DNA of 25,597 nucleotides from a virus, in IMG/VR virus record IMGVR_UViG_3300048929_000531, positions 1-25,597 of that record; one strand, written 5' to 3'. Positions 12,665 to 23,379 of this stretch are shown one piece after another. Each line of letters opens with the position of its first letter. Position 1 is the stretch's first letter. Both the position numbers and the translations under genes were made by a program. The notes under the pieces are model-generated. The model saw nothing but the letters and a program-made list of their open reading frames with translations. It ran no database searches and was not told the DNA's origin.

Positions 12665-13321
12665 TCACAGCCTGCGCTCAGAGCGTTTCAACTTCCGCTT
12701 CTGACGAGTAGCCGTGGGTGCAAGCGTGCTTGCAGCGACCGGCTCCACCTGTGCCTCTGTTACTGTGACTGAGGCACCGCGCGAGAACGCTTCGACAAAG
12801 ACCTTGAGTCGCCCCTTTGAGTCAAGCCGCTGCACCTGACCGACAAAGTCCGCCATCGGACCTTCAACGATCCTGATCAGCTGCCCGATGGCATAGTCCC
12901 GAACGCCAAGCGGCACGTTGAACGCGGCGACAATGCCGCGGACGACCGTCATGTCCGCGGCGCTCAGCGTCGCAAAGTGCTCGCCGATCTTGAGGAAGTC
13001 GCCGATGTCATCGACCCGTTGAAGCGCAGGGTTATCAACATCGAAGTCCGGCACGAACGCTAAACCCGGCAGGAACGGCTTCTCGACGCGCTTGCCGACA
13101 TGCGGCTTTCGGGTCTCAAGGCGAGTCCGTCGATCGATGTAACGCACCACCGTGGGCGAATAGGCGCACGCACCGCGTCGCTTGAGCGCATCGACAACGC
13201 GGCCATCTCGCCCCGGCGTCACACACAGGATGTACCATCGCTTCGGCGCCGACGGCACTGAAATCGGCTCTTCGATCGGCACGTAGCCGACGAATTGGCC
13301 CCTGACGTACTGCATGTTCAT
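12665..13321 (-). CDS. NusG/RfaH-like transcription elongation or antitermination factor, 218 aa
   Basis: Predicted to bind RNA polymerase and change pausing or termination. Residues about 28-113 look like a NusG N-terminal domain: RWYILCVTPGRDGRVVDALKRRG (the 'WYvl.t.pg.E..v...L...G' opening), PTVVRYIDRRTRL, and KPFLPGLAFV (the 'plfPGYvFv' element), ending with DIGDFLKIGE. Residues about 142-175 are a KOW motif: YAIGQLIRIVEGPMADFVGQV, a good match to 'G..V.I..GPFa...G.V'. A basic tail (KRKLKRSERRL) closes the protein. It starts at ATG 13319-13321, overlapping the replication gene stop (ATGA). Being the last early gene, directly before two hairpins and the late operon, suggests it lets polymerase read into late genes. 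That role is inferred. Confidence 0.82.
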   Translation of the reverse strand: MNMQYVRGQFVGYVPIEEPISVPSAPKRWYILCVTPGRDGRVVDALKRRGACAYSPTVVRYIDRRTRLETRKPHVGKRVEKPFLPGLAFVPDFDVDNPALQRVDDIGDFLKIGEHFATLSAADMTVVRGIVAAFNVPLGVRDYAIGQLIRIVEGPMADFVGQVQRLDSKGRLKVFVEAFSRGASVTVTEAQVEPVAASTLAPTATRQKRKLKRSERRL

Positions 13322-14562
13322 TCGTTCTCCCCTGCCTGTGGTGATGCTGAAATCATTCCGTCCTTGCGCGGCGGCCACGGCCATGGCGCATGGAAGCCGC
13401 GGCTCAGTTCGGCGCCGACGCGGCGCGTCGTAAGGATTTCCGGCCGCGGCCGATGAATGTGCGTCGACAGGAACGCCGACCAGGCCGCGACCTGCGCCCG
13501 ATCTTGGATCCAGTGCCACGCCGATTCCGGCGGCGCGACGGCGAAGGCGATCACGCGCGCCGTTACCGGAAGCGGATAGATCACGCGACCATTGCGCTCC
13601 GACAGCGACGTCCGGGCGAGCCCGAACAAAGCCTTGAGCGCCCTGCCCTCCACGCTTTCGACCGCGTAGGAGTTGCTCGACCCTTGCGAGCCTGAAGGCG
13701 CATCCGCGAGCGTTGCAGTCGGGAATTCTTCGAAGCCACGACTGCGAATCCACAGATGGAAATTCGGGATGTGGTCACGCTTGAGGTGCCGCTGCATCTC
13801 GAAAAATTTCGGAATCGCCGCCCGACAGAGCAGCCGTTTGTCGGGCGTCAGCTTTCGAAACTCGGCGAGCGCCAGATCTCGGCGCATCACTTCGTGCCCC
13901 GGCCACGACTGCCACGCGGGAGCGAAGTGTTCAGGCTCGGGCTCAACTTCCGAGACCTCGCTCCGCTCGCTCTCGCCTCCGGAGGGGGTAGGGGGAGAAT
14001 CTTCCGGTTCAGGTTCAGAAGAGTCTGTGGCCCCCACGCAGCTGGGGGGCTGCTGAGGGGCTACTGCGGGGCAGTCCCCATTTTGCCCCCCATGCGGCGG
14101 GGGGCTAGATGTAGCAACCTGCCCCCCATGGCGTGGGGGGCTAATCCCTTGCGAGCGCTTGCTCAGAAAAGCATCAAGTTCGTGCTCCGGAACATGCGCT
14201 GCCTCTTCGATCTCGTCGATGTCAGCAAACAGCATGAGCTGAATGTCGTCGGTGGTGCGCTTGCCCCTACCCTCGCTGTTACGAACGCCATTGCCATCCC
14301 GCCAGCGCGGGCGCCGACTGATCGCTCCGATCTTCTCCAACCAGCCGAGACGCTTGCTGATGGTGTTGACCGCCAGCTCGCAATCCTCGGAAAGCGATTC
14401 CTGCCCGACGAAGCAAATTCCCTCGCCATTGACATAGCCGGTGATCATCATGAGCACCAACTTGCCGAGGGGATTGCCGAGGCGAAGATTGCGCGCCCAG
14501 GAATGCGCTTCGTCGGAAGCGATGCGCCGCGGGCGAGGCTTGCCGCGCACGATGGTAGCCAT
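13318..14562 (-). CDS. Replication-initiator-like protein with N-terminal winged helix, 414 aa
   Basis: Residues about 15-90 form a winged-helix domain of the helix-turn-helix_36 type (AHSWARNLRLGNPLGKLVLM, then GQESLSEDCELAVNTISKRLGWLEKIGAI). Such domains open many phage replication proteins (lambda O-like). A Pro/Gly/Ser/Glu-rich linker (about residues 140-215) contains short repeats SPPRHGGQ, SPPPHGGQ and QPPSCVGA. The C-terminal half has helices and Trp-rich phrases (HIPNFHLWIRSRGFEEF; PPESAWHWIQDRAQV) with no helicase or primase motif seen. The repeats are encoded by GC-rich near-palindromes (see 14030-14141), as in lambda where the origin lies inside gene O. It overlaps the NusG-like gene by 4 nt. 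Exact family not certain. Confidence 0.75.
   Translation of the reverse strand: MATIVRGKPRPRRIASDEAHSWARNLRLGNPLGKLVLMMITGYVNGEGICFVGQESLSEDCELAVNTISKRLGWLEKIGAISRRPRWRDGNGVRNSEGRGKRTTDDIQLMLFADIDEIEEAAHVPEHELDAFLSKRSQGISPPRHGGQVATSSPPPHGGQNGDCPAVAPQQPPSCVGATDSSEPEPEDSPPTPSGGESERSEVSEVEPEPEHFAPAWQSWPGHEVMRRDLALAEFRKLTPDKRLLCRAAIPKFFEMQRHLKRDHIPNFHLWIRSRGFEEFPTATLADAPSGSQGSSNSYAVESVEGRALKALFGLARTSLSERNGRVIYPLPVTARVIAFAVAPPESAWHWIQDRAQVAAWSAFLSTHIHRPRPEILTTRRVGAELSRGFHAPWPWPPRKDGMISASPQAGENE
14030..14141. repeat. Three 21-nt GC-rich iteron-like repeats inside the replication gene
   Basis: Copies lie at 14030-14050, 14085-14105 and 14121-14141. Each starts with G plus 5-6 C, has a 7-8 nt centre, and ends with 6 G plus C, so each can form a hairpin. 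The two right-hand copies share GCCCCCCATG and are followed by TA. Between copies 1 and 2 is a further G/C-rich partial copy. In the protein they code for the linker repeats. Location in an initiator gene suggests replication-origin iterons; this is inference by analogy to lambda ori in gene O. Confidence 0.55.
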
Positions 14563-14630
14563 TTTCTAGTCTCGTGATGCGAAAGATTAAGTTGGACGCG
14601 GTAAGCAACTGCACTGAAACGATGATCCGG

Positions 14631-14909
14631 CTATTTCCCCTGCAGCAGGATCTCGACGATGCGGTCGGCGTCGAGCCGGTCGATCGCTTCGGTCTCGACG
14701 GCGCGGCCCAGACGGTCGAGCCACTCAGGCCGCATGCGGCGGCATTTCGTGCCGCCGTCTTTGGAGAGCGTCCGGTCGGGATGGTCGTACTCGACAAGCT
14801 CGCCGAGCTGGCCGCCCTTCGCGACAAGGTCGCAGATGATGTCGGCCAGCTTGAATCCGCGCGGGCCTTCGGCCGACAGCGTCCAGAGGAGTCGCTCAAG
14901 ACCAGCCAT
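14631..14909 (-). CDS. Hypothetical phage protein, 92 aa
   Basis: Starts at ATG 14907-14909, overlapping the end of the upstream gene by 14 nt, and ends 68 nt before the replication gene, the one clear gap in the early operon. The product is helical and mixed in charge: [31 protein letters not shown], a basic middle KDGGTKCRRMRPEWLDRL, and DADRIVEILLQGK at the end. There are no Cys pairs or known motif. Position suggests an early or replication-associated role. I do not recognise it. Confidence 0.6.
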   Translation of the reverse strand: MAGLERLLWTLSAEGPRGFKLADIICDLVAKGGQLGELVEYDHPDRTLSKDGGTKCRRMRPEWLDRLGRAVETEAIDRLDADRIVEILLQGK

Positions 14910-15414
14910 TGAAGCCTCGGCTTTGCAAAGCCGGCTTCCGCGGCTCGTCGGGCCCGGCCAGGCGCCTATCGAGCGCGCTGCGGCCAGGCGCAGGGTCGCC
15001 GAACAAGCCGCCCGTCAGGCCGCGCTCGGCGATCCTGGCGCGCAGTTCGGCCTCGGCCCGCAGGACCTCGAGCGCAGCGGTACGGCGGCGCAAAGCAATG
15101 TCTGCCGGCGCCGGCACGGCGACCAAAGGTGGGGCGACCGGCTTGACCGCCTCCGGCACCGACGGCCGCGCCGGCTTCGGCGCCGGCAGCGGAGGCGGCG
15201 CGGCGCGGATTGGCTTCGGCCCATAGCGCCCGGGCTCTTCAGGACGCTGCTGCGCTTTGTTGAAGGCGCGCAGCCGATCGTAATACTGGACGATGCAGGA
15301 GCCGCGCGTGCGGCCAGGCATGCGCGCAGCGACCGCGTCCCATTTCAGCCGCTCGACGTCGCGCAGATGCAACAGCCGGTCGCGTTCCTTTTGGGTCCAG
15401 CGCGGCTGCTTCAT
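14896..15414 (-). CDS. Myb/SANT-like DNA-binding protein, 172 aa
   Basis: Residues about 3-50 resemble a Myb/SANT fold: [36 protein letters not shown], with spaced aromatic/Trp-like positions (W6, W25) and the last helix [15 protein letters not shown] ('gRt..qc..ry...L'). This suggests DNA binding, often seen in phage early proteins. The middle (about 60-110) is Pro/Ala rich and probably disordered. The C-terminal part is a basic, Arg/Leu/Ala-rich helix ([21 protein letters not shown]). Start ATG at 15412-15414 overlaps the upstream stop (ATGA). Could regulate early transcription or bind origin DNA; unproven. Confidence 0.72.
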
Positions 15415-15626
15415 GCCGGCACGCCCTCGAGTCTGGCGTCGCAGAGCGGCGTCGCATCGCTGCGGATGCGCTCCTCGTCGCGCCACCATTCGATCCAGTG
15501 CACGTCGCGGCCGCCTTCCTGCTCATGGCGCGAGACCTTCACCAGTTCGCAGCGAACACATTGCCGCTCGGTCTTATAGGCGCCGAACCGGACTGGCTCC
15601 CCCCAACGGTGACGGGTGGAGTTCAT
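15411..15626 (-). CDS. Small Cys-containing hypothetical protein, 71 aa
   Basis: Starts at ATG 15624-15626 (overlaps the upstream stop as ATGA) and overlaps the Myb-like gene by 4 nt. It begins [15 protein letters not shown] and contains [18 protein letters not shown], a CxxC pair like a zinc knuckle half, then [12 protein letters not shown] with two Trp, and a third Cys near the C-terminus (PLCDARLEG). A single CxxC followed by His and Cys may bind one metal ion. Similar tiny 'CxxC..l' proteins are common in Rhizobiales phages. No function known. Confidence 0.65.
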
Positions 15627-16481: not shown

Positions 16482-16666
16482 TGCCCCACAACCCCTTTGA
16501 TGCGCGCCTCGTTGGTCTGCAGCCAACGCAAGGTGTCGATCGCGGCCTCGAGGCGCTTGATGTGAAATTCCGCGACCGAACGGCTCATCTTGCCGCGCGT
16601 GATGCGGCGCTCTTTCAGCTCCAGCTCGACGGCGTCGACCTGTTGAGACAGCGAGAACTTGTTCAT
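16478..16666 (-). CDS. Small helical phage protein, 62 aa
   Basis: Begins at ATG 16664-16666 (overlaps the ParB/MT-A70 stop as ATGA). The product, MNKFSLSQQVDAVELELKE followed by RRITRGKMSRSVAEFHI and a helix with IDTLRWLQTNEARIKG, is charged and almost wholly helical, likely a coiled-coil dimer. Small proteins with this exact flow (start 'fsl..Qi..ve.el..R...y', end '...a...Tl.wl...e..i') are common in early regions of alphaproteobacterial phages. No known function. Confidence 0.7.
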   Translation of the reverse strand: MNKFSLSQQVDAVELELKERRITRGKMSRSVAEFHIKRLEAAIDTLRWLQTNEARIKGVVGQ

Positions 16667-18642
16667 GCCCGCGCCCCCTCCCCTTTCGCCGCCGGCAATT
16701 GCCCGACGATTAGCGCCAGGAAGGCGCGGCCCTCGTCGGTGACGAAGACTGACGTCGTGGTGGCCGAGGCGAAGCCGGCGCCGATCGCGTTGCGCATGAT
16801 CGACCATTCGACCTCCTGGCCGGCGTCGATCGCGAGCAGCGTCGCCTGCAGTTCGATCTCGTCATCGGTCAGCGGCAGGCGCGTCTGCAGCCTGTCGTCG
16901 ACGACCTCCGCCGGCGCACGGTCGCGGCGCGTGACGTCCATCTCGCCTTGCAGGTCTGGCCGCGACGCTTTCTTCGGCTGATCCTGGAAGCGCAGGAAAT
17001 CCGGGATGCCGCCGTCGTCAGGGAATTTGAAACGTCCAGGTCGGTTCGCCGGCGGCGCGGCGTCATCGGTGCGGCCCGCAGGGGCGGCATCCGAAACGAC
17101 TGTCCCACACTCGGCCGGGGCAACACCGGCCGGAGGGGCTGGACGATCGACGGCGCGCGAAGCTTCGCCGCCGTCCGCAATGGGTGAGGACGCGCCGCCA
17201 TGGCTATCCGGCGCGTCCTCGTCCGATGTCCGGCCATCGGCAACCCTACTAACAGGCGCTTCCATACCTGCCGGCTCGCCCTCGAGAGCCGGACCGTCGC
17301 CTGCGTTCGCTTGGGAATGTTCGGGCGCATCAAAGCCCCAGGCGGTCCAGCCTGGGCGCGCGCGCCGCGCGTTGAATTCCACTTTCGGCATCGAGGGCCA
17401 GTGGAATTCAACGATCTCGTGAATGTTGGCCGGCTTCTCCGAATGCTCGCCGACCGGCGCGGAGAAGTTGCTGCGGAAACGCGCGACGGCCGGCGCCACC
17501 ACCTTGCCGCGGACGCCGACCAGGACGATTTCGTGCTCGCCGGTGAACCAATAGCCAGGACCGCGGGCCTCACCGGGGCGCTCCTTGTTCCAGACCAGGC
17601 TAGTGACGTAGCGGAAGCCCTGCAGCTCCATCACGCGGATGGCGATGGCGAGATGCGGGATTGTGGTCCACTTGAACAGGACGCAATCGTCAGCCAGGCA
17701 GGCGAAGCGCTCGGCGCAGCGGGCGACGATATCCTCCGGGCTATGCGCATCCTCGGCGGTCTCGTAGTGCATCGACGGATGCCGCTCGACACCGGTCTTG
17801 CGCGACCACGGCTCGTGGTCCCATTCGAAATCCTCGATCGCGACGCCGAACGATTTTTCCGGCAGCGCCTGCAGCTTGCGGCCGAGCTGCTGCTCGCGCT
17901 CGGCCCGCTTTTCCTTCTTGGCGGCGACCTTCTCGGCCCGGATCTCCTTGATGACGGGCGCCAACGCCTTTTTGACCTCGGGCAGCAACCTGCCCTCGGC
18001 ATCGCGCGGGAGCGTCCTGACGATCTCCGCCTGGCGCTCAGCCGGCTCCTGAGCGATATCGGCGGCCGCCGACACCGCAATCTGCCCCGCCCGAACCGCT
18101 TCGGTTATTTCAGGGATCGCATCCCGCTTAACAACCTTGGCGCGCTCTACGGATGCCCGACTGGCCTGGGCCAGGTTGGAGGCTACCTCAATTGAGGTAC
18201 CCTCGCTGTGCTGGTTGCCGCCGACCCTCAGATCCGCCAGGTCGGCCGCGAGCATTGCTCGTTGTCCGGGATCGAGATGGCGCCGGGTCAGGTTTTTCGA
18301 CACCACGTAGGCCAGCGGGTCGCCATCGATCTCCGGCCAGAACCGAATGAAGACCGTATCGTTAGTGGTATCGAGCAGATCCTCGAGCAAGAGGATCGTT
18401 CCGGCCCTCTTGCCCCAACCGGGGCCGAGCGGCTCTTGCGTCGACACCAGCCACACCAAGGCCCGATAGCGGTTGCGACCGTCGAGGATCTGGAAATTGC
18501 CCTGCCCCTCGCCGTTCGCCATATCGATCAGAAGCACGCGGTCGAGCAGACCATTGATCCGGATGTCATCCGCCAGGTCATAGAATTCCTGGCCGTCGAT
18601 CAGCGGGAACAGGTTGGCGTACTGGTGAAATGCAAGGGTCAA
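16663..18642 (-). CDS. ParB-like domain fused to MT-A70-type methyltransferase, 659 aa
   Basis: Three parts. Residues about 1-200 are ParB-like (FPLIDGQEFYDLADDI, ILDGRNRYRAL at 52-62). About 255-440 is an MT-A70-type adenine methylase: FGVAIEDFEWDHEPWSR (motif IV at 271-274 reads DFEW instead of the canonical D/N-PPW or DPEW), VLFKWTTIPHL, LVWNKE, HSEKP at 400-404, and VEFNARRARPGWTAWG near its end. Residues about 445-620 are Ala/Pro/Asp-rich and probably disordered; 620-659 is a folded-looking tail. A charged coil (about 230-255) joins domains. The start is TTG at 18640-18642, overlapping the HNH stop as TTGA. No better start is present. The changed motif may lower activity or change target. 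Confidence 0.82.
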   Translation of the reverse strand: MTLAFHQYANLFPLIDGQEFYDLADDIRINGLLDRVLLIDMANGEGQGNFQILDGRNRYRALVWLVSTQEPLGPGWGKRAGTILLLEDLLDTTNDTVFIRFWPEIDGDPLAYVVSKNLTRRHLDPGQRAMLAADLADLRVGGNQHSEGTSIEVASNLAQASRASVERAKVVKRDAIPEITEAVRAGQIAVSAAADIAQEPAERQAEIVRTLPRDAEGRLLPEVKKALAPVIKEIRAEKVAAKKEKRAEREQQLGRKLQALPEKSFGVAIEDFEWDHEPWSRKTGVERHPSMHYETAEDAHSPEDIVARCAERFACLADDCVLFKWTTIPHLAIAIRVMELQGFRYVTSLVWNKERPGEARGPGYWFTGEHEIVLVGVRGKVVAPAVARFRSNFSAPVGEHSEKPANIHEIVEFHWPSMPKVEFNARRARPGWTAWGFDAPEHSQANAGDGPALEGEPAGMEAPVSRVADGRTSDEDAPDSHGGASSPIADGGEASRAVDRPAPPAGVAPAECGTVVSDAAPAGRTDDAAPPANRPGRFKFPDDGGIPDFLRFQDQPKKASRPDLQGEMDVTRRDRAPAEVVDDRLQTRLPLTDDEIELQATLLAIDAGQEVEWSIMRNAIGAGFASATTTSVFVTDEGRAFLALIVGQLPAAKGEGARA

Positions 18643-19127
18643 AACGGGATCTCCGCCGGTTGCGGCCGCGGGCCGAGGCTGGCGACGAGACCGCGGACGA
18701 TGTCATCGAGAGAAGGGATTGCCGATCGCGGGCCGCCGTTGCGGGCATTCTGCCGGCGCGTGGCCCAGCGCAAATTGGCGCGGCGATTATCAAGCGTCTG
18801 GCGGTTGATGTGGTCGACGTGATGCGACCCCTTGAACCGCTCGGAACGCGGGTCGGCGACGATCTGTATCTCGCGATGCATGCGCAGCGTGGCGCGGTCG
18901 ACCCCGACATTGCGCTTGCCGTACTTCTGCCAGGGCGTGCGCGAGCCCCAGCTGACGTTCCAAACGTTCGCCGACAGCCAGTCGTAATCCTCGGCGTCGA
19001 CCAAGCACCAGATGTTCTCCCGCGCCGACAGCACGATGCGGCGCCAAGGCGTCCATGACAGGTCGATCAAGTCGGCGGAGACCTGCTCGAGCTGCTGCTT
19101 GCGCGAAGTGACGAACGAGCCGTGCAT
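18639..19127 (-). CDS. HNH endonuclease, early region, 162 aa
   Basis: Free-standing HNH nuclease. N-terminal half resembles the AP2/NUMOD-like DNA-contact part: RIVLSARENIWCLVDAEDYDWLSANVWNVSW, then TLRMHREIQIVADPRS. The nuclease core is SHHVDHINRQTLDNRRANLRWATRRQNARN (about 97-126), giving the HNH His in VDH, the Asn in LDNRRANL and the N of RQNARN, the typical HNH_3 layout. It may act as a homing-type nuclease or join in phage DNA processing. It overlaps the GapR-like gene by TGATG and ends in TTGA with the methylase gene. Confidence 0.88.
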   Translation of the reverse strand: MHGSFVTSRKQQLEQVSADLIDLSWTPWRRIVLSARENIWCLVDAEDYDWLSANVWNVSWGSRTPWQKYGKRNVGVDRATLRMHREIQIVADPRSERFKGSHHVDHINRQTLDNRRANLRWATRRQNARNGGPRSAIPSLDDIVRGLVASLGPRPQPAEIPF

Positions 19128-19726
19128 CAGGCGACGGGCTCCTCATCATCCTCGTCGACCTCGTCCGGATCACGCGCATGATCGCGTGAGCGGCGCTCGG
19201 CACGATCGGCGGCGGCCTTGACCGGGTCATCCTTCGGCACGATCGACAGCACGGTCGCCGACGACTTAATCGCGCGGCCGGTCTTTTCCGGCTTCGGCGC
19301 GACATACTCCTCGGCGAACGACTTGCCGTCCTCGGTGCGCCAGAGCCGCATCGGCTTTCCGCCGAGCCGGGCGATGATCTCGCCGTTGACCGGGACGAGC
19401 TTCTGCAGCGCGTCGATCAGCTGGTCGCGCCCCATCTCGTCGTGCACCAGCGCGGAGATCTGTTCGTGCAGCGGGCTTTCCGCGGCCATGCCGAGCGCGT
19501 GCATGTAGGTGCCGTCGATCGCATCCCACTCCGCGATCTCGGCGGACTCCTTTTGCCGGCGCTTGATGATGCGCCGCATCGACTTGGTGTCGTACCCCTT
19601 CGCCTTGGCCTCGGCGAACAGCGCGCGCTGATCATCGCCGAGCGCCTTCCGCTCCTCGGCGATCCGCTCGATGCGCTCGATATAGGCCTTCAGCTCCTCG
19701 CGGGCCTCGGTGCGGAGTGACGTCAT
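19127..19726 (-). CDS. GapR-like (DUF2312) DNA-binding protein with extra C-terminal domain, 199 aa
   Basis: Residues about 10-62 (EELKAYIERIERIAEERKAL through YDTKSMRRIIKRRQKE) are a good match to DUF2312, the GapR family of alphaproteobacterial nucleoid proteins that bind overtwisted AT-rich DNA during replication. In this phage copy the domain is followed by about 130 more residues, with LHEQISALVHDEMGRDQLIDAL and a strongly charged tail ending DEDDEEPVA. GapR proteins are normally about 90 aa, so the extension is unusual. Start MTSLRTEARE at 19724-19726 is preferred to the far-upstream ATG at 19885. Upstream is a coupled 11-aa mini-ORF. Confidence 0.82.
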   Translation of the reverse strand: MTSLRTEAREELKAYIERIERIAEERKALGDDQRALFAEAKAKGYDTKSMRRIIKRRQKESAEIAEWDAIDGTYMHALGMAAESPLHEQISALVHDEMGRDQLIDALQKLVPVNGEIIARLGGKPMRLWRTEDGKSFAEEYVAPKPEKTGRAIKSSATVLSIVPKDDPVKAAADRAERRSRDHARDPDEVDEDDEEPVA

Positions 19727-19758
19727 AGGGCGACCTCGACAGACAGAAGCCGATCCAT
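19723..19758 (-). CDS. Coupled 11-residue mini-ORF (MDRLLSVEVAL)
   Basis: An ATG at 19756-19758 shares its A with the stop of the upstream HTH gene (TGATG), and its TGA at 19723-19725 overlaps the start of the GapR-like gene (ATGA). The peptide would let ribosomes pass from one gene to the next by termination-reinitiation. It is too short for the usual annotation, so it is kept at low confidence. Confidence 0.4.
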   Translation of the reverse strand: MDRLLSVEVAL

Positions 19759-20141
19759 CAGAGCCCCTCCTCGAGCGCGGCCAGGCGGCGCGCGGTTTCA
19801 GCCGCCTGCTTGCGCAGGCGCGCGACTTCATGCGTGCGGCGGACGTTTTCGGCCCATGGATGTTTGCAGTCGGCTGTGAGCGCATCGAGCACGCGATCGC
19901 CGATGTCGCTGCAAATCAGGCGCGCGAGCGCCTCACCATCAGGCGCCCCGGTGCCGGCGATCCAGAACTCGCAAATGCGAGTATGGCGGCCGGCCCGGGA
20001 GGCAAGATTCTGCGCCAGCTTCTTCGGGAAAATCCCGCGCAAATCCGCAATAACCGGCGCGAACCACAGATGAGATCGTCGGGATCGTCCGATCTTTTCA
20101 TCGGTCCCTTTTTTTGACGTTCCTGCGCGGGTGGGGCTCAT
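19758..20141 (-). CDS. HTH transcriptional regulator of the early operon, 127 aa
   Basis: Residues about 24-90 resemble a phage HTH domain: WFAPVIADLRGIFPKKLAQNLASRAGRHTRICEFWIAGTGAPDGEALARL, which has the 'k.a.nLA..tg.s.RtcerWl.G...P.g.a...L' flow of known alphaproteobacterial phage regulators. The last part RRTHEVARLRKQAAETARRL is a coiled coil. ATG at 20139-20141 overlaps the upstream stop (ATGA). It lies second from the control region, where a Cro- or CII-like regulator would be expected. The N-terminal 20 residues are basic and may be disordered. Confidence 0.72.
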   Translation of the reverse strand: MSPTRAGTSKKGTDEKIGRSRRSHLWFAPVIADLRGIFPKKLAQNLASRAGRHTRICEFWIAGTGAPDGEALARLICSDIGDRVLDALTADCKHPWAENVRRTHEVARLRKQAAETARRLAALEEGL

Positions 20142-20377: not shown

Positions 20378-20388
20378 GATTGCCGTTC

Positions 20389-20464
20389 AACAGTAATTTT
20401 ACCGATTCGGTCAACGGTAATGTTACCGTTTCCCACCGGATTACCGGCCAGTCAAATTACCGAC
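20389..20464. promoter_or_regulatory. Left operator region: at least three sites between the early operon and the repressor
   Basis: Sites: 20389-20406 AACAGTAA-TT-TTACCGAT; 20413-20430 AACGGTAA-TG-TTACCGTT (perfect 8-bp arms); 20447-20464 GCCAGTCA-AA-TTACCGAC (weak); plus one lone half-site TTACCG at 20441-20446. They fill the 89 nt between the divergent starts of the early operon (20377) and repressor (20467). The same sequence recurs on the other side of the repressor gene. They should bind the CI-like repressor. Exact -10/-35 boxes here were not convincing. Confidence 0.8.
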
Positions 20465-20466
20465 CC

Positions 20467-21144
20467 ATGGATAACCTCAAGAAAATCGTTGCGAGGATTG
20501 ACAAACGGCTAGCAGCGGTCGGGCTGAAAGCCGCCACCGCGTCCCGTCAGGCAGGGCTTAGCGAGAGCGCGATTTACAACATGAAGCGTGGCGCAAAGGG
20601 GAAAATCGCCACGCGAGGTGCCAATGCCGCGACATTTATCGCCCTTGCCCCTGTACTTAAAACGACACCGGCATGGCTAATGTCAGGTGAAGGTCCCGAG
20701 GTTGCTGAACCGGATCCTCACATCGAAAGCGGCGCAATTCTGCCCGACCCTCCGCGCAACGGTCGTTTTGTGCGAATTGTCGGCTATGTTGGCGCGGGAA
20801 GCGCCGCCCACTATTACGCTATTGCCCAAGGAGACTACGAAGAGGTGGAAGCCCCTATCGGAGCTAGCGATCAAACGGTCGCGGTAGAAATCAAAGGCAA
20901 GAGCTTTGGCCCGCTCCTCGATTCCTGGCTGGTGTTCTACGAAGATGTCAGGTCACCAATTTCCGATGACCTGCTCAACCACACCTGCGTGATCGGCCTC
21001 AGTGACGACCGAATCCTGATCAAGGAGGTCCGACGGGAGCGCGACGGTAGTTATACGCTACTCTCAAATTCGGACGAACCTCCTATCCGAAACGCACAGA
21101 TTGAGTGGGCCGCAAAGGTAACCGGTCTTCGACCGAGGCGGTGA
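20467..21144 (+). CDS. CI-like phage repressor with S24 peptidase domain, 225 aa
   Basis: Keeps the prophage silent. N-terminal residues about 15-75 are an HTH domain (ATASRQAGLSESAIYNMKRG, then ALAPVLKTTPAWLMSG, the usual 'tPaWLl.G.g' end). Residues about 100-220 are an S24/LexA-like part: IVGYVGAGSAAHYYA with a probable Ala110-Gly111 cleavage point, VEIKGKSFGPLLDSWLVFY with Ser at about 146, and DRILIKEVRRERDGSYTLLSNS with Lys at about 186. Ser and Lys are both present, so RecA-stimulated self-cleavage is plausible, although GKSFGP replaces the common GDSMxP. Start at 20467 was chosen as the upstream ATG at 20380 would read through the operators. It has no strong ribosome-binding site, since operators lie right before it. 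Confidence 0.88.
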   Translation: MDNLKKIVARIDKRLAAVGLKAATASRQAGLSESAIYNMKRGAKGKIATRGANAATFIALAPVLKTTPAWLMSGEGPEVAEPDPHIESGAILPDPPRNGRFVRIVGYVGAGSAAHYYAIAQGDYEEVEAPIGASDQTVAVEIKGKSFGPLLDSWLVFYEDVRSPISDDLLNHTCVIGLSDDRILIKEVRRERDGSYTLLSNSDEPPIRNAQIEWAAKVTGLRPRR

Positions 21145-21926: not shown

Positions 21927-22324
21927 CCCCTATCTCCCTCGCAAAGAGTCCTGAGGACCTTCGCCTGGCACTGGAAGCCGCCTTCGCCGGCAAGGCTACC
22001 ATCGGCGTCCCAAAGCTGGCGGCCCTCATCCCCTTGCATCGCGAGACGATCCAGCGGCATGTTGAGGCTGGCAACCTGACCGGCCGGCTGAAGGGCCTCG
22101 GCCGCACCAGGCGCCACCGGGTTTTTACCATCGGCGATGTGATCCGGTTCATCGAGTTTCTGGCCGAGGATCCGCCATGTCAGTCTACCGCGACAAGCGA
22201 TCGCCCTATTTCCAATTCGACTTCCAGATCGACGGTTATCGCTTTTCCGGCTCCACCAAATGCCGCAATGAACGTGACGCGCAGACCTTCGAGGACGCGC
22301 GCAAAGTCGAAGCTCAAGAGCTAG
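21923..22324 (+). CDS. Excisionase-like HTH protein (overlaps integrase start)
   Basis: Residues about 20-80 form a MerR/Xis-like winged helix: FAGKATIGVPKLAALIPLHRETIQRHVEAG, then NLTGRLKGLGRTRRHRVFTIGDVIRFIEFL ('tIgv..la.l......Ti..hve.G.l.....G.g...r.f...dv..fie'). It would bind near the attachment site and steer integrase towards excision. The reading frame continues to a stop at 22324, 148 nt past the integrase ATG at 22177, so the last 50 residues (PISNSTSRSTVIAF...) are likely not functional sequence. A longer-than-needed overlap hints at loss of an original stop. Confidence 0.65.
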   Translation: MTPISLAKSPEDLRLALEAAFAGKATIGVPKLAALIPLHRETIQRHVEAGNLTGRLKGLGRTRRHRVFTIGDVIRFIEFLAEDPPCQSTATSDRPISNSTSRSTVIAFPAPPNAAMNVTRRPSRTRAKSKLKS

Positions 22325-23379
22325 TCGATCAGCTCAACGCCGCCGGCAGCGGGCCGCTGCAGCTCAAGGCGGCCTGCGACCGCTGGTGGATCGAGCACGG
22401 GTCAACCCTATCCGACGTCTCGATCAAGCGCGCCCTGGACCGCCTGGTCGAGATCATGGGCCCGAAGAAATTCCTGCATGCCATTACCGACGCCGACGTC
22501 ACCCTCATGATTCAGAAGCGGCGCGCTGACACTCGCCGCGACTGCACGGTTATCGACGACGACGGCAAGCGCACCATCCTGTACCGGCCGATCACGCTGT
22601 CGACGGTCAATCGGACCATCGACCTCTTGCGCCGCGTGATGCGCCGCGCCCGCGACAACTGGAACGTCGCGATCATCCGGGAACCGAAGTGGCGAAAGCA
22701 TCGCTTCAGGGAAAAGCGCGGCCATGTCCGGGAGCTTACGGCCACCGAGGAAATGACACTGGATGCGGCGGAGGATGCCGACTATGCCGAGCTGCGCCGG
22801 TTCGCGATCATTACCGGCCTGCGCAAGCGCAACCTCATTCTGCTCTGGCCTCAGATCGATTTCGAGCTCGGCGTCATCCGGGTCATCACCAAGGGCGGCG
22901 AGCCGCGCGTAGTTCCGATGACCCGCGAAGTCTACCAGATGCTCTGGCGCCGCCGCGGCGATCATCCGGAATACGTTTTCACCTTTCGCGCCAAACGCAC
23001 CCGCCAGTGCCCTAAAACCAAGCGTCAGTACGTCAAGGGCCAGCGCTACCCGATGACCTACGCCGGCGTGACTTCGAACAAGACGCGCAAATGGGCCAAG
23101 GCTGGCATCAAAGCGCGCATCCACGACCTCCGTCACACTACCGGCATGCGCACTCTGCGCCGAACCAGAAACCTGCGCGTGGTGCAGGAGCTGCTCGGCC
23201 ATACCGACATCAAGACAACGGCAGATTTTTACACCGCCGCGATGGTCGACGATCTTCGGGCCGCGATGGAGGAAGCGACCGCGCCAGCCGCGGCACCGCT
23301 CTTTGAGCAGCCATCAGAAGGCCAAGCCGAGAGTCAGGCCTCGGGCTCGAGTCCCGGAAAAAATCCCGGAACGCCCTGA
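22177..23379 (+). CDS. int: Tyrosine-type site-specific integrase, 400 aa
   Basis: Catalyses integration and excision at the tRNA site. N-terminal arm-binding part: SPYFQFDFQIDGYRFSGSTK (an AP2-like beta region). A SAM-like core-binding domain covers about residues 60-170. The catalytic domain holds the full set of residues: Arg216 in TGLRKRN, Lys239 in TKGGEPR, His316 and Arg319 in HDLRHT, His342 in LLGHTD and Tyr352 in TADFYT. The protein is full length and should be active. The tail from about 365 is Ala/Pro/Ser rich. The gene points to the attachment site about 55 nt beyond its stop. ATG at 22177 fits the normal N-terminus although it lies within the excisionase-like frame. Confidence 0.96.
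   Translation: MSVYRDKRSPYFQFDFQIDGYRFSGSTKCRNERDAQTFEDARKVEAQELVDQLNAAGSGPLQLKAACDRWWIEHGSTLSDVSIKRALDRLVEIMGPKKFLHAITDADVTLMIQKRRADTRRDCTVIDDDGKRTILYRPITLSTVNRTIDLLRRVMRRARDNWNVAIIREPKWRKHRFREKRGHVRELTATEEMTLDAAEDADYAELRRFAIITGLRKRNLILLWPQIDFELGVIRVITKGGEPRVVPMTREVYQMLWRRRGDHPEYVFTFRAKRTRQCPKTKRQYVKGQRYPMTYAGVTSNKTRKWAKAGIKARIHDLRHTTGMRTLRRTRNLRVVQELLGHTDIKTTADFYTAAMVDDLRAAMEEATAPAAAPLFEQPSEGQAESQASGSSPGKNPGTP

Follow-up and report, generated by a model that had tools for sequence, protein, structure and literature searches.

A probable phage replication origin inside its own initiator gene, with an oriented GAACC repeat as the putative opening tract

Repeats in the middle of a replication initiator gene of a temperate phage probably form part of the phage's replication origin, in which the opening tract would be an oriented, sequence-specific GAACC repeat. 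Judging from comparison of sequences, we give this reading a probability of roughly 85%. The window, that is, the whole stretch of DNA analysed, comprises 25,597 nucleotides (IMG/VR record IMGVR_UViG_3300048929_000531, positions 1 to 25,597). The first-pass annotation had proposed the phage origin at these repeats, and the proposal is supported by the sites in relatives, by codon conservation in the linker and by a match between one protein residue and the site type. It had, however, treated the iterons as the whole candidate origin and missed a phased array, a GAACC box and a hairpin; its interval, 14030–14141, was too narrow, as the element reaches about 13976.

The window encodes a CI-like repressor (20380–21144) and an integrase (22177–23379), both on the plus strand, as in a temperate phage, and its early genes form a leftward run through the initiator gene to the terminase gene. 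The relatives of the phage suggest a host in Bradyrhizobium/Hyphomicrobiales. A gene for a NusG-like transcription antiterminator (phrog_6386; 12665–13327, minus strand) adjoins the initiator gene downstream; two annotated Bradyrhizobium phages have a similar-sized gene at this place without that annotation. Also on the minus strand are a gene in the early region for a protein with a GapR-like DNA-binding domain (19127–19885; PF10073, E = 5e-26) and a gene whose single product has an MT-A70-type methyltransferase match and a weaker ParB-like match (16663–18642). No helicase loader was recognised by Pfam and PHROGs profile search in the subset of window open reading frames that was scanned.

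The initiator gene (13318–14562, minus strand; 414 amino acids) had been called initiator-like from its sequence, and profile searches identified it as a replication initiator, with matches to HTH_36 in Pfam (PF13730, E = 8e-6) and to replication initiation (phrog_1032, E = 1e-10) and O-like (phrog_345, E = 1.5e-8) families in PHROGs. An AlphaFold2 model, built from 14 family sequences, has a winged-helix DNA-binding domain at residues 9–138 (14149–14538, minus strand; pLDDT mostly >85), including a predicted recognition helix at residues 65–78 (14329–14370, minus strand) in which residue 66 differs by iteron type. An N-terminal DNA-binding domain, found here by both the profiles and the model, is characteristic of initiators of lambda-type origins. 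The model also has a helical domain at residues 213–283 (13714–13926, minus strand), possibly the part that recruits a partner, and a last domain at residues 297–410. Residues 140–205 were predicted to be disordered, exactly where the repeats are coded, in agreement with the disordered linker described earlier. A fold search of the PDB gave weak, general winged-helix matches, the DnaD N-terminal domain among them. An iteron plasmid origin (RepA/RepE/TrfA) was considered and rejected because Pfam assigned the initiator to HTH_36 only and to no Rep winged-helix family.

All three 21-nt copies reported earlier with the pattern G-C(5-6)...G6-C were located, with arms G-C5/6-N7/8-G5/6-C. Iterons A (14121–14141) and B (14085–14105) are perfect palindromes, GCCCCCC-N7-GGGGGGC, while iteron C (14030–14050), the final site before the box, is imperfect. 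Their plus-strand sequences at 14030–14050, 14085–14105 and 14121–14141 are GCCCCCACGCAGCTGGGGGGC, GCCCCCCATGCGGCGGGGGGC and GCCCCCCATGGCGTGGGGGGC, respectively, with start-to-start spacings of 55 and 36. Such perfect palindromes are far above chance: 0.01 are expected per window, and two together occurred in none of 100 shuffles. The peptides that the copies had been said to encode, SPPRHGGQ/SPPPHGGQ, are encoded by two of them, but the third starts at codon position 3 instead of 2 and encodes QPPSCVGAT. This change of reading frame suggests that the DNA is being kept rather than the peptide.

Relatives were taken from two prophages, one of Bradyrhizobium with 46% identity and the other more distant, 10 IMG/VR contigs, 4 genome contigs and a scan for the box, which gave 28 genes in addition to that of the window. 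A scan of IMG/VR with the single protein yielded zero relatives, while a two-sequence alignment used as query did find them. In the scan of IMG/VR DNA for the box, from which some of the 28 genes came, 20 of 21 matches were to this type of initiator gene (the exception was L037). Absence of the repeats from relatives had been named as an argument against an origin; palindromic or clearly repeated sites were present in the same linker in all 28 related genes, imperfect in a few (L016, L041), although counts across these genes, which share descent, are not counts of independent events. The sites were TTAGCCCT..AGGGCTAA in most genes, GACCCT..AGGGTC in some and GCCTCC..GGAGGC or C6..G6 in others, with AGCCCT/AGGGCT also found at the same place in the linker, so that the C6/G6 sites of the window are one variant among several kinds. 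Like the iterons of a lambda-type origin, they lie within the coding sequence of the initiator and are conserved in relatives.

The same codon was used for 92–95% of identical amino acids across the iteron and box regions, compared with 52% gene-wide, which bears out the earlier expectation that the DNA of the linker is better conserved than its protein. If the repeats were instead kept for the protein, as a partner-binding linker rich in Pro and Gly, the near-identical SPPxHGGQ from two copies would be explained, but the third copy in another frame, the unrelated peptides at the same place in relatives and the conservation of codon choice itself would not. The box in L019, CTGAACCTGAAGATTC, is retained despite a frame shift that turns SEPEPED into SNLNLK, a further point against a peptide function, which we regard as very unlikely.

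A scan for tandem strict palindromes gave a single isolated case, L003/L171 (IMGVR_UViG_3300033489_000009; 588–800 of L003), which was set aside. Its 251-aa HTH gene, GC-rich and probably actinobacterial, has several G-C5/6...G5/6-C palindromes in a linker, sites close to those of the window in an apparently unrelated protein.

The kind of site co-varied with residue 66, at the start of the recognition helix. Aspartate at this position went with CCCTNGC sites in 17 of 18 genes, glutamine with CCCTACC or CCCTATCC sites in 5 of 5, and asparagine or glutamate with neither of these in 6 of 6, an agreement in 28 of 29 genes that was spotted by eye and then counted. In a tree from which helix and linker had been left out, the residue classes were scattered, with 3 changes for Q and 5 for N/E; several changes of class imply that shared descent alone does not produce the match, though independent events are few. 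L015 and L028 have different sites; their DNA identity is 99% from the box onward and 75% before it, as if DNA-binding domain and sites had in effect been exchanged as a single block with its border at the box. With one helix residue matched to the iteron centre, this amounts to a small recognition code that can be tested. A packaging (pac) or partition site, which the terminase gene a few kilobases away might suggest, would not be expected to vary in type with the recognition residue of the initiator, nor to show the same repeat-then-box order in initiator genes of other families; we give this explanation almost no weight.

Beyond the palindromes, Tandem Repeats Finder detected tandem GCCCC half-sites with an 11-bp period leading into iteron C (14041–14072, minus strand). 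Mean identity among the 28 family members was 0.58 at lag 11 and 0.51 at lag 22, against about 0.26 at other lags. When the family genes were aligned on the box, they matched without gaps for about 60 nt upstream, and the 42 nt preceding the closing half-site consisted of half-sites at the 11-bp period. The box itself (13997–14018, minus strand), CTGAACCTGAACCGGAAGATTC, is a conserved TGAACC repeat, the only such site in the window, and is proposed from these comparisons as the strand-opening or single-strand element. An AT-rich opening tract beside the window iterons was tried and rejected, the box in the family being just 3% richer in AT than the gene.

In the family, the half-sites give way to 2–5 TGAACC units and these to two C5-6 tracts, separated by a short gap, with a small loop between the second tract and G5-6. 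C5 N0-8 G5 was found in 26 of 27 family genes, compared with 0.4 expected; the window has a degenerate, weak form of this hairpin, C5-TA-C5-TCCGGAGG (13976–13995, minus strand). A hairpin after the box as a general feature was rejected: outside the family, fold energy was just modestly low in the other sets. Hairpins acting in RNA, whether to terminate or pause transcription or to provide the NusG-like protein encoded downstream with an antitermination signal, would suit the GC-rich hairpins directly upstream of an antiterminator gene, several of them with UUCG/UCCG-type loops. The sites, however, have no T-run and no terminator call, and a role in RNA leaves the helix co-variation and the GAACC repeats unexplained and could apply at most to the last hairpin, so we consider it improbable.

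The palindromes and the winged-helix protein would also fit the anatomy of autoregulation, with the palindromes as operators inside the protein's own gene and the true origin elsewhere; some initiators both start replication and autoregulate. The sites are, however, about 420–530 nt into the gene in the window and mid-gene in relatives as well, no promoter-like site was present in 13300–15500, and an operator does not need an array and a box in fixed order after the sites. Operators thus seem an unlikely explanation, if slightly less so than a role in RNA.

The sequences themselves show that the sites exist, are conserved at the DNA level and co-vary with the recognition helix, and they show the array as well as the box and its recurrence; from all this we infer binding, oligomer growth, melting, helicase loading, the strand bound and initiation for an origin at the repeats. 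A probable dimer of the N-terminal winged-helix domain would bind the palindromic iterons; the domain would next fill the 11-bp-phased half-sites, whose spacing would set further copies along one side of the helix towards the TGAACC box. The resulting strain would open the box, and one strand, with its oriented GAACC repeats, would be kept open for loading of the host helicase. The C-rich/G-rich hairpin beyond the box may mark the opened end or lend it stability. The position and conservation of GAACC point to it as a likely opening or loading element. A DnaA-dependent origin was rejected, as no DnaA box within one mismatch was present near 14.0 kb, a search that boxes of a diverged consensus would escape; matches across the window were at chance level in total. 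Cumulative GC skew showed no inflection at 14.0 kb. We found no experiments on any of these phages in the literature searched.

GAACC repeats were also frequent outside the family. Among phrog_1032 initiators from 398 varied Pseudomonadota genomes, which gave 40 non-redundant genes outside the family, at least two GAACC within 30 nt were present in 23 genes, compared with 2.0 by codon permutation (maximum 5 in 60 shuffles), and three within 45 nt in 11 genes, compared with 0.08. GAACC ranked first among the 1024 5-mers against codon permutation, a ranking that was not blind because GAACC had been seen by eye beforehand. Compared with synonymous shuffles, in which the protein is preserved, pairs were found in 23 genes versus 9.9 (maximum 14) and triples in 11 versus 1.4, and AACCA and GGGTG ranked above GAACC. 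The pairs were oriented: 24 were on the coding strand in 37 kb, 1 was antisense and 1 was in 173 kb of flanking DNA. They were at 0.45 of the gene, with repeated 7-mers upstream in 40 of 42 genes, and mostly spaced by 11–12 bp, so that the reading frame need not be kept. Two further sets from IMG/VR gave the same picture: in the Pseudomonas-like one, the iterons varied freely (GCACC.., TGCCCC.., TTCACC..) while AGAACCGTAATAGAACCATCAAGTGAACC was nearly constant. Both sets were gathered with families already sampled, and their evidence speaks to conservation and not to independent discovery.

Close to half of the 40 genes lack the motif or have a changed form of it. The idea that GAACC is universal was rejected, as lambda-O-type genes lack it and use CAAAAGAC-like repeats. 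In the lambda-O-type L141, L143 and L146, CAAAAGAC-like repeats past the iterons are followed by C5-N-C5 tracts, and in L141 and L143 by a G5 arm, which the window family also has. Two enterobacterial-type initiators (L071, L073) have GATCC where GAACC would be, which recalls AGATCC of P1 oriR. A literature search found no description of GAACC with phage origins; its coverage of subscription journals was thin.

We see an even chance that GAACC repeats in one orientation, a helical turn or 6 bp apart, are a general strand-specific element for opening and helicase loading in HTH_36-type phage origins across Proteobacteria. They would then correspond in phages to the DnaA-trio and be read by a conserved factor, with the iterons free to diverge from one initiator to the next. 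Because iterons and binding domain vary and GAACC does not, GAACC is more likely read by a host loading factor, or by a second, conserved surface of the initiator, than by the iteron-binding helix. To our knowledge, most temperate phages have no mapped origin; with an oriented GAACC after a mid-gene repeat block in HTH_36 genes as a guide, many origins could be located by eye, and a shared GAACC would indicate a common opening mechanism behind very different iterons.

Among known systems, P1 oriR (L333) is an experimentally known origin in which iterons adjoin short direct repeats, AGATCC(A/C), mostly spaced by 10–11 bp. These are close to AGAACC at 11–12 bp, a formal parallel; unlike the origin proposed here, oriR is outside its initiator gene, has Dam and DnaA sites and uses an initiator, RepA, that is not HTH_36. 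P1 oriL, like the window, has its origin inside the initiator gene, repL, and synonymous changes in its AT2 tract cut replication strongly while the protein was fine in trans (PMC9948254); its tract is AT-rich, with no GAACC repeat. In Bacillus oriC, the DnaA-trio and the DnaD recognition element are short oriented single-strand repeats that adjoin double-strand initiator boxes and are thought to steer helicase loading onto one strand (PMC10797057, PMC10201434). Initiator family and motif differ from those of the window, and single-strand binding, which was shown there, is inferred here.

The lambda origin in gene O (L042) resembles that proposed for the window in its mid-gene, palindromic iterons (TCCCTCAAAACGAGGGA), with an opening tract on the same side. 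In lambda, a type-specific N-terminal initiator domain is paired with its own iterons. Lambda O belongs to other PHROG families than the window initiator, and the window, unlike lambda, has an extra array of 11-bp half-sites. The opening tract is AT-rich in lambda (ACACAAAAGACACTATTACAAAAG), whereas the window has a TGAACC-repeat box of ordinary composition. Because an AT-rich tract is absent and a sequence-specific TGAACC box is present instead, we classify the window element as a variant of the lambda-type origin and not as a plain member.
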